This document shows, piece by piece, positions 1-32,170 of a DNA stretch of 37,948 nucleotides. The stretch's first letter is position 1. Each line of letters begins with the position of its first letter. Below the pieces are notes generated by a model, which made no database searches, had not been told where the DNA came from, and worked only from the letters and a program-made list of their open reading frames with translations. Source of the DNA: Bacteriovoracales bacterium (GTDB taxonomy: Bacteria; Bdellovibrionota; Bacteriovoracia; Bacteriovoracales; Bacteriovoracaceae); NCBI GenBank assembly GCA_026713835.1, contig JAPONP010000203.1, positions 1 through 37,948 on the forward strand, read 5' to 3'. A program made the translations under genes and the position numbers.

Positions 1-27
1 GGTCAGGGCCGATTTTAGCCTTTCTTT

Positions 28-196
28 GTAACTGCTCACCCCCCGGCAATCTTGGCAGTCGACTGCCTCGTCGCTTCCTTGCGACATGCAGGAAGCACGC
101 CTCAGTCGCTCCTCGTTGCCTCCTACCAATCTTATCCGGGTGGAGAACAGTTACCTTGCCTTTATTACAGTTTTTGCCAGAGGTGCGAGCAGTTAC
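28..196 (+). mobile_element. MITE-like non-autonomous element, long copy (169 bp), IS66-like ends
   Basis: Left end GTAACTGCTCACCCCCCGGCAA, right end GGTGCGAGCAGTTAC; the outer 10 bp are perfect inverted repeats. Flanking 8-bp direct repeat CTTTCTTT at 20-27 and 197-204. Same sequence as 30969..31077 except for a 60-bp internal segment. No transposase ORF inside. Confidence 0.85.
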
Positions 197-704
197 CTTT
201 CTTTTGAGCCTATTCGTTTTTTTAGCAAGTTGCGGCCATTTTTCGACCAATCAAATAGCACGAAACACCTTTATTCTTAAAGATGGCTATTTTCACGGAA
301 AATTTGTCAAAACCCGGCTTCCGTTTGAGCAGATGAGTTGGTTTAAAGAGGCCACGTTGATCTATGATCTTAGAATGGGGGCCCTTTCCAAAGATTCTCC
401 CTACTTTCTTTGGCTTTCCTCCAAATCTCAAGAAGATGTGAGAAAATGTCCGTATTTTTATGTCGCCCTTTTGTACTCACAATCTTCTCGCTATATCGCA
501 CATGGGCTCGTTCGCAATCAGTTTGAGATTCAAAAGGCTTCCTGGCAAAGCCTTTCCGATTTTGAGCGTTCACTACGGATGCATCCTCAATTTAAGGAAG
601 AATCATTGCAAAAACACCATGTCAGGGGGGTTTGTTTTCAGTCGGCCCCTAGGGGCACCCTGATCAGTTTACCGGGCTACCCTTCCCAAACAATACTGGA
701 CTGA
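183..704 (+). CDS. Putative lipoprotein of unknown function; N-terminus altered by the repeat insertion
   Basis: ORF 156..704; VRAVTFLLSLFVFLASC gives a hydrophobic region plus lipobox LASC. The GTG at 183 lies inside the mobile element. The ORF is also open upstream to the window edge. Confidence 0.6.
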   Translation: MRAVTFLLSLFVFLASCGHFSTNQIARNTFILKDGYFHGKFVKTRLPFEQMSWFKEATLIYDLRMGALSKDSPYFLWLSSKSQEDVRKCPYFYVALLYSQSSRYIAHGLVRNQFEIQKASWQSLSDFERSLRMHPQFKEESLQKHHVRGVCFQSAPRGTLISLPGYPSQTILD

Positions 705-8413: not shown

Positions 8414-9550
8414 CTAAGACGGTTTCCGAAGTAATCTTTTGGCGATAATGGCGATCATGATCTCATTGGTGCCGGCCCCGATTTCATTAAGTTTGGCATC
8501 TCTCATATATCTTTCCACGGGAAATTCTCGGCTATAGCCGTAACCTCCGTGGAGTTGAATGGCATCGAGAGCGATCTTGGTGGTCATTTGGGGAAGGGCC
8601 AATTTGACCTGAGCTGCCGTCACCGGGCCTTGAAGGCCTCGGTCATATTCATAGCAGGTGTGGTAGAGAAAAGAGCGCATCATCTTCTCTTGGGTACTCA
8701 TATCGGCGATCATTTTTTGAATGAGTTGAAACTCTCCGATGGGTTTGCCGAATTGTTTTCTCTCACCGGCGTAGCGAAGGCATTGCTCCACGCAGGCCTT
8801 GGCGATGCCCAGGGAGATGCCGGAGATGGTGATCCTTTCCAGATCGAGGTTTCTCATCATGTGATCTACGTCTCCGTCTTGGCTGACCCGGTTTTCGAGG
8901 GGAACCCGGCAGTTGTCGAAGATAAGCTCCCCCGTGGGCGAGGCCCTCATGCCCATCTTTTTGATCTCCTTGCCCACGGAAAAGCCGTCCATGGAGCGAT
9001 CCACGATGAAAGAGGAGAGGCCCTTTTTGCCTTCCCCCGTTCGGGCGTAGATATAGGCCACATGGGCGTAGTGGGCGTTGGTGATCCACATTTTGGAGCC
9101 GTTTATGGCGTAGTGATCCCCCTTCTTGAGGGCCCTGGTCTGCATTCCCAAGGCGTCGGAGCCAAAGTCCGCCTCGCTCATGCCCATACATCCGATCCAT
9201 TCCCCGGAGATCAGTCGGGGGAGGTATTTTTCCTTTTGTTCTGCGGTGGCGTTTTGGTCGATGTTATTGACGCATAGAATACTATGGGCCAAGTAGCTGA
9301 GTGTGGTGGAGGCACAGGCCCGCCCCAATTCCTCCATGACGATGGTGGCCGCCGTGGCCCCCAGCCCGCTCCCCCCGTAGTCGGGAGAGGCCGTGATGCC
9401 CAAGAGTCCCAACTCCCCGAGTTTTTTAAAGCAGTCGAGATGGAAGCTCTCTTCCCGGTCGTGTTTTTCTGCGTGGGGGGCGATCTCCTTTTCGGCAAAT
9501 TGCCGACAGGTTTCTTGGAGTTGCCGTTCCTCTTCGGTAAAAAACCACAT
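8414..9550 (-). CDS. Acyl-CoA dehydrogenase (isovaleryl-CoA dehydrogenase-like)
   Basis: ORF 8414..9646, likely start ATG at 9550 (MWFFTEEER). Motifs MGMSEADFGSDALGM, KMWITNAHYAHV, QLHGGYGYSREFPVERYMRDAKLNEIGAGTNEIM. Confidence 0.92.
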   Translation of the reverse strand: MWFFTEEERQLQETCRQFAEKEIAPHAEKHDREESFHLDCFKKLGELGLLGITASPDYGGSGLGATAATIVMEELGRACASTTLSYLAHSILCVNNIDQNATAEQKEKYLPRLISGEWIGCMGMSEADFGSDALGMQTRALKKGDHYAINGSKMWITNAHYAHVAYIYARTGEGKKGLSSFIVDRSMDGFSVGKEIKKMGMRASPTGELIFDNCRVPLENRVSQDGDVDHMMRNLDLERITISGISLGIAKACVEQCLRYAGERKQFGKPIGEFQLIQKMIADMSTQEKMMRSFLYHTCYEYDRGLQGPVTAAQVKLALPQMTTKIALDAIQLHGGYGYSREFPVERYMRDAKLNEIGAGTNEIMIAIIAKRLLRKPS

Positions 9551-30960: not shown

Positions 30961-30968
30961 GGTGAGAT

Positions 30969-31077
30969 GTAACTGCTCACCCCCCGGCAATCTTGGCAGT
31001 CGACTGCCAATCTTATCCGGGTGGAGAACAGTTACCTTGCCTTTATTACAGTTTTTGCTAGAGGTGCGAGCAGTTAC
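30969..31077 (+). mobile_element. MITE-like non-autonomous element, short copy (109 bp), IS66-like ends
   Basis: GTAACTGCTCACC...GGTGCGAGCAGTTAC with flanking 8-bp direct repeat GGTGAGAT at 30961-30968 and 31078-31085. Confidence 0.88.
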
Positions 31078-31078
31078 G

Positions 31079-32170
31079 GTGAGATGGGCCCTTCTCTTTT
31101 TCTTTTGCCTAGGGAGCGCAAGTGCCGGGAATAGTGAGTTTCGCTATCTTCATCGCTCGAGCAAAGGACTTATGATGGGAGATGCCTACACCACGTTGGC
31201 CTTGGACTCATCGGCCCTTTTTTATAACCCGGCCTTGGCCGCAAGAAATGATCTTGCGGCCATCTATCCTCTTCCCATGGATATGGGTCTTTTTCATCTT
31301 TTGGATGAAAAAGATCGTTTTGACAATGCGGACACCAATGAAGTTTCCGATTTCGTCGATGCGATCATTGGACTTCCCATTCACTTTCGAGCGGGTCTCG
31401 TTCCCACCATTAAATTTGGGGGCTTCACCTTCTCGTCTTTTGCCGTGGCCGATACTCACTTAATCGTTCGGGATAGGATTCATCCCGTGGGAGATTTTTA
31501 CTACAGGTACGACCGGGGATTTGCCCTTGGCTTTGGGTGGATGCCCTTTGGTTCCTCCAGAAGCGGGGGCCCTAGTTTGGCCCTCGGCGCTTCTTTAAAA
31601 TATATCCATCGGGATGCGATCATCAATCAGTACGATATCTTTAGCAAGACGTTTGCCGATCTCATCAGCTCCGATTCCAGGGGACTGGATGGGATCAAAA
31701 ATTCCTTGGGATTGACGAAGGGAAAGGGTTGGGGGGCCGACTTGGGAGTGGATTGGCGTTACAAATGGGGGCCTTCCACTTTGGCCTTGGGGTTTTCGGC
31801 CATGGATGTCTTGGATACGAAAATCAAAACCTACCGGGGATCGGGGCCTATGCCCGATCAACCCATGGCCTTGAGCTTCGGGTCGAGCTTTTCTCAAGTG
31901 TTGAATTCCTTGGCCGATTGGACCGTTTCATTTGATCTCCATCCCCTGGGGGAGAGGATCAAGCTCAAAGAAAAGGCCCATTTGGGATTTCAAATGGGGA
32001 TTCCCTTGGTGGATTTTTTTGTGGGATATAATAATGATTGTCGTAGCTATGGGGTGGCCTTTGATCTTTTTCCCTTTGAGTTTGCGGTGGGGGTCTATGA
32101 AAGGATGTTTGGAAGGGATAAGAAAAGGAGCTTGACGGCCCATTTTAGTCTTTTTGACACTTCTTTTTAG
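31079..32170 (+). CDS. Exported outer-membrane beta-barrel-like protein (FadL/PorV-like)
   Basis: ORF 30923..32170. VRWALLFFFCLGSASAG signal peptide; MMGDAYTTLALDSSALFYNPALAA motif. GTG 31079 lies in the right TSD copy; GTG 30962 is the likely ancestral start. Confidence 0.75.
   Translation: MRWALLFFFCLGSASAGNSEFRYLHRSSKGLMMGDAYTTLALDSSALFYNPALAARNDLAAIYPLPMDMGLFHLLDEKDRFDNADTNEVSDFVDAIIGLPIHFRAGLVPTIKFGGFTFSSFAVADTHLIVRDRIHPVGDFYYRYDRGFALGFGWMPFGSSRSGGPSLALGASLKYIHRDAIINQYDIFSKTFADLISSDSRGLDGIKNSLGLTKGKGWGADLGVDWRYKWGPSTLALGFSAMDVLDTKIKTYRGSGPMPDQPMALSFGSSFSQVLNSLADWTVSFDLHPLGERIKLKEKAHLGFQMGIPLVDFFVGYNNDCRSYGVAFDLFPFEFAVGVYERMFGRDKKRSLTAHFSLFDTSF

Follow-up and report, generated by a model that had tools for sequence, protein, structure and literature searches.

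Palindromic repeats that lie in frame within genes have been known since those of Rickettsia, and the route by which such repeats arrive is unclear. The Rickettsia palindromic elements (RPEs) are palindromes of ~150 bp found in frame in unrelated genes, to whose products they add a peptide (Ogata et al. 2000, 2002; PMC10969869). The enterobacterial RU-1 and RU-2 repeats (ERIC) are MITE-like and ORF-bearing and are fused in frame to genes, with RU-2 forming part of the signal peptide in one predicted exported protein (Delihas 2007; PMC2759123). The MITEs QMITE1/2 of Coxiella burnetii likewise extend or enter bacterial ORFs in frame (PMC5896051).

The element described here is a MITE in a 37,948-nucleotide stretch of Bacteriovoracales DNA, analyzed as a whole (the window), which is contig C203 of a draft genome, G000, of 2.34 Mb in 235 contigs. 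By its mode of working this MITE resembles the RPEs, being palindromic, in frame inside unrelated genes, including conserved ones (RqcH, CtaA-CtaB, and genes with signal peptides), and apparently adding a peptide; we claim no membership in the RPEs by sequence. It differs from them in its clear transposon ends, its 8-bp duplications, and its 59-codon arithmetic, which includes the duplication, as well as in being read in both orientations and in the predominance of signal peptides among its sites. Whereas RU-1 and RU-2 contribute, in isolated examples, to signal peptides that are new, this MITE splits existing ones in about a dozen genes. QMITE1/2 are a separate MITE family, and the text of PMC5896051 does not mention signal peptides. 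A new IS66-type MITE is by itself ordinary; what is new is the in-frame, signal-peptide-rich placement within a known class of gene-entering palindromes (RPE, RU, and QMITE). The combination of transposon ends, 8-bp duplications, and in-frame coding makes the route, IS66-type transposition followed by frame-preserving survival, directly testable.

Anatomy and copies of the element

The window MITE, a member of the main subfamily, occupies positions 28 to 196 of the forward strand. Its 10-bp terminal inverted repeats, recognized from the sequence and from a genome-wide count of ends, read GTAACTGCTC at 28 to 37 on the forward strand and at 187 to 196 on the reverse (GAGCAGTTAC on the forward strand), and the element is flanked by perfectly matching 8-bp target-site duplications, CTTTCTTT, at 20 to 27 and 197 to 204. 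The original prediction had described a 169-bp element with these ends and flanks, and the description is exact; it had also judged the element too short for a transposase, in keeping with a longest internal frame of 56 codons. A length below 600 bp, terminal inverted repeats, and no transposase are the features of a MITE. Comparison of copies delimits a 53-bp internal block (68 to 120) that contains GCGACRTGCAGGAAGCACGCCTCAG and is missing from a 116-bp variant, the deletion being bounded by TGCC(TC) direct repeats. Sequence comparison places a core hairpin, GCGACATGCAGGAAGCACGCCTCAG, common to a phylum-wide palindrome family, at 81 to 105 on the forward strand. A third, internal end-like sequence lies at 145 to 154 on the reverse strand (GAACAGTTAC on the forward) and is directly followed by a conserved 42-bp tail at 155 to 196. 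On the forward strand this tail (156 to 196) carries an in-frame TTG at 156, with GGAG 10 nt upstream, and to judge from this context the TTG could start a peptide MPLLQFLPEVRAVT... An Rfam search of window positions 1 to 400 gave no match.

The window element is not a chance arrangement, since it recurs whole across G000: a sequence search (40 of 163 candidates scored) found full-length copies at 94 to 98% identity, and the exact 10-mer end GTAACTGCTC occurs 183 times vs 7 for the reversed control pattern. Halving the ends gives ~90 copies, which is only an estimate because the assembly is a draft with many contigs broken within the element. Contigs ending inside a repeat are expected of short-read assembly. 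Complete copies measure 169 (the commonest length), 116, 109, 96, 90, 89, 170, and 187 bp, and an older subfamily of ~11 copies, with ACCCATTTGG after the end, is 82 to 84% identical to the main one. The original prediction had proposed a search for other copies with independent 8-bp duplications, and these exist. The duplication is perfect in 24 of the 31 complete copies for which both flanks are available, has one mismatch in 4, and is absent from 3, and its octamer varies from one copy to another. Dispersal in many copies with a target duplication of fixed length (at most one mismatch in 28 of 31) is what is seen in MITEs, and the duplications set the element apart from REP/RAYT palindromes, which have a Y1 transposase and no target duplication.

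Beyond this genome, a search of 58 relatives returned only short matches, all in G023, and none was found for the right end in viral contigs. The left end of the older subfamily, searched as an exact match, occurs once in GTDB r220, inside proS of a Desulfobacterales MAG, and this hit was set aside as chance. At 8679 to 8721 of contig C77 (L144) is a 43-bp mini-hairpin with the same type of end; it has neither the tail nor a target duplication and may be the family's shortest remnant.

Reading frames and host genes

The window copy is predicted to lie in frame within the signal peptide of a lipoprotein. Its host ORF, an open frame at 3 to 704 on the forward strand whose 5' end is beyond the contig edge, is lipoprotein-like, SGPILAFL-[MITE, 59 aa]-TFLLSLFVFLASCGHF..., and has no Pfam match. 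As predicted from the open frame, the host ORF reads through the MITE, a point absent from the original prediction. The notion that the MITE merely lends the host gene a new TTG start was rejected, because the host frame has no stop anywhere in the element. The empty site at this locus is predicted to read GATTTTAGCCTTTCTTTTGAGCC. A second copy in the window, a 109-bp variant at 30969 to 31077 on the forward strand, is flanked by GGTGAGAT at 30961 to 30968 and 31078 to 31085, and its host is an open frame at 30962 to 32170 on the same strand, MR-[MITE]-VRWALLFFFCLGSASAG..., predicted to encode an exported protein. The GTG start of this host, at 30962, falls within the left GGTGAGAT, after AGGGGG. 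Because GGTGAGAT includes the GTG, the start codon is present in both copies of the duplication.

The length of the element plus its duplication amounts to whole codons in three forms: 169+8=177=3x59, 109+8=117=3x39, and 187+8=195=3x65. Frames +2 and -0 are free of stops in 19 of 19 169-bp copies, from both subfamilies, most of the other frames of these copies have 1 to 9 stops, and the 109- and 187-bp forms are likewise open in +2 and -0. We asked in which frame neighboring genes abut the element by taking the longest stop-free flank at each element end, of at least 100 codons and with the element itself excluded; flanks were read for ~46% of G000 plus 17 further loci, with only loci from the first searches represented past contig 120. 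The abutting ORF is in +2/-0 at 20 of 31 169-type ends (one-third expected), and +2/-0 joins are seen at 17 of 28 169-type loci (p=0.003) and for 15 of 19 genes reading outward from them (p=6e-5). Copies of other lengths have no frame bias (5 of 14). Genes reading into the MITE often stop immediately, at the TAA of GTAAC, and several copies lie at the very end of an ORF, within its final codons.

Genes for exported proteins and lipoproteins account for ~12 of 17 outward in-frame loci vs 174 of 763 in the background (p=4e-5), where signal peptides were called by a simple rule of our own plus reading, not by SignalP, and the 23% background comes from the same crude rule. In these genes the MITE follows the start and precedes the hydrophobic core of the signal peptide, as in MMMKNKMRAWPIL-[59 aa]-ILMAFILFSSFC (C229), MGPK-[59]-PKERPKAMLVMGLSFFFLCSC (C180), and MKLSTLISSF-[59]-SFLGLLMTLIPSG (C179). 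Start codons lie upstream of the MITE at C180, C229, C179, C152, C96, and C203, and among such native starts, those of C180, C229, and C203 included, some have Shine-Dalgarno-like sequences. This concentration suggests that the boundary between n-region and hydrophobic core tolerates insertions of ~60 residues, a point of interest for export biology.

Linkers between domains are a second kind of site. In an RqcH-like gene the MITE occupies residues 332 to 390, in the linker after NFACT_N (92 to 124) and before NFACT-R (438 to 518). At C26:963-2912, CtaA and CtaB are fused as one ORF, a fusion also present in many relatives within the family. The MITE lies in the linker between CtaA (72 to 204) and UbiA/CtaB (381 to 630), and its segment aligns to none of the 38 relatives searched. 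The fused ORF has 590 to 636 aa in 11 relatives, against 591 in G000 without the MITE and 650 with it, a comparison that, at the protein level, comes closest to an empty-site test.

Survival, adaptation, and targeting

We consider it likely that the element is a non-autonomous IS66-type MITE moved in trans, of which frame-preserving insertions survive, and that the window copy is one such insertion. Matching ends and duplications suggest that a single-ORF IS66-type (ISBst12-like) transposase would recognize GTAACTGCTC ends in trans, and insertion into A/T tracts would duplicate 8 bp of the target. As the 169-, 109-, and 187-bp forms with their duplication make up whole codons and are open in one frame per strand, a copy landing in a linker or close to a gene's 5' end would lengthen the product by ~59 (39, 65) residues and leave the gene unbroken. 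The distribution of copies suggests that those in linkers or close to 5' ends, chiefly those at the boundary between n-region and hydrophobic core, survive purifying selection. The fusions would presumably be translated, and MITE-encoded peptides such as TVTLPLLQFLLEVR and GATEACFLHVAR would join exported proteins.

A strong contender, which we rate only slightly below an even prospect, is that this is an IS66 MITE of the ordinary kind, found in frame solely because purifying selection has spared such copies, with no coding adaptation; its open frames would be a by-product of a GC-rich palindrome, and host proteins would restart at codons within the MITE or past it. It is not rare for a GC-rich 169-mer to have two of its six frames open, the probability that both stay open across subfamilies by chance is 0.056, many copies are intergenic or at gene ends, and the tail offers its TTG preceded by GGAG. 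Against this, 10 of 28 copies are in signal peptides, which make up ~1.2% of the DNA, A/T-tract preference yields only a ~1.5-fold excess, and variants tend toward the wobble position common to both frames (p=0.025).

That excess at the wobble position hints weakly at selection on the MITE's own reading frames, and the MITE may possibly be adapted to being read through; strong selection on these frames was sought in the copies and not demonstrated. A mobile peptide cassette selected for read-through is a more speculative idea, and one we hold tentatively. Length class and two open frames would here be kept so that insertion in the signal peptide of an exported protein yields a working, extended one, with the longer form carrying the core hairpin of a phylum-wide, replication-oriented family.

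Direct targeting of signal-peptide DNA through its A/T tracts (Lys AAA codons and Phe/Leu T-runs), with coding compatibility secondary, we find unlikely. A/T runs are indeed overrepresented in the duplications: their A/T content is 69% vs 52% in the genome, 13 of 28 contain an A4/T4 run vs 11% of the genome (p=3.5e-6), and those in signal-peptide genes are A/T tracts encoding KK, FL, or SF. However, this preference alone is insufficient for the signal-peptide excess, because signal-peptide regions hold only 2.3% of the A4/T4 octamers in coding DNA, too few to give 10 of 28 without a survival filter.

IS66-type elements in relatives and related palindromes

The assignment to IS66 made in the original prediction is supported by elements in relatives. 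IS66-type elements found there through PF03050 have GTA-type ends and 8-bp duplications, as the MITE has GTAA...TTAC ends and an 8-bp duplication. A single-ORF IS66-type element, G060:C97:1-1515, has an ORF of ~460 to 469 codons and GTAACTGCCCAATA at both ends, and we searched the phylum with its transposase protein and read the ends of the elements found. Single-ORF elements in two genomes (L229 and L233) end in GTAACTGCTC, others in GTAACTGCAC (L221) and GTAACTGCCC (L214), and a 1480-bp element (L245) has GTAACTACCC ends and an 8-bp duplication, AAAAAAAG, the same octamer that is duplicated at the C67 MITE copy, read on the strand of the C67 gene. An IS66 origin appears well supported by this match of ends and duplication. 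The MITE shares GTAAC... inverted ends, the 8-bp duplication, and A/T-tract targets with single-ORF (ISBst12-like) IS66 elements and differs from them in that it lacks a transposase gene and that G000 yielded no intact partner for it.

The search of G000 for an autonomous partner returned only PF03050 fragments, at contig ends (C104:14226-14585, with stops, and C231:11714-11917), with no GTAACTG ends near them and no intact transposase with MITE ends. Another lead, C15:15743, proved to be a bare MITE end beside ordinary genes and not an IS. That the MITE comes from some other transposase family with GTAAC ends and 8-bp duplications is very improbable: the missing intact partner and a similarity confined to the outermost 8 to 10 bp would allow it, but the identical 10-mer, GTAACTGCTC, is found ~20 to 25 bp past the transposase stop in IS66-type elements from this taxonomic family, and IS66-type elements in the phylum have GTA ends with 8-bp duplications.

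The core hairpin has a distribution of its own. With paired changes in its stem it forms the center of palindromes of ~110 to 130 bp that have other ends and occur in other genera and families, and a covariance model of it has matches in 46 of 144 genomes; a literature search by its sequence returned nothing relevant. Palindromes of ~128 bp that share it reach at least 24 copies in several closed g83 genomes (e.g., G111:C1, G130:C1, and G127:C1; cf. L257-L268). Among the copies listed for G111, 12 of 12 before 1.94 Mb are on the plus strand and 10 of 10 after 2.46 Mb are on the minus strand. The g83 family looks replichore oriented, with one switch near mid-chromosome, whereas the MITE has no such bias (31 of 56 relative to GC skew; p=0.50). 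In G023 (L251, L079, and L083), another palindromic repeat, possibly a TA-target MITE, has TATACCCTTCG...CGAAGGGTATA ends and the same core hairpin.
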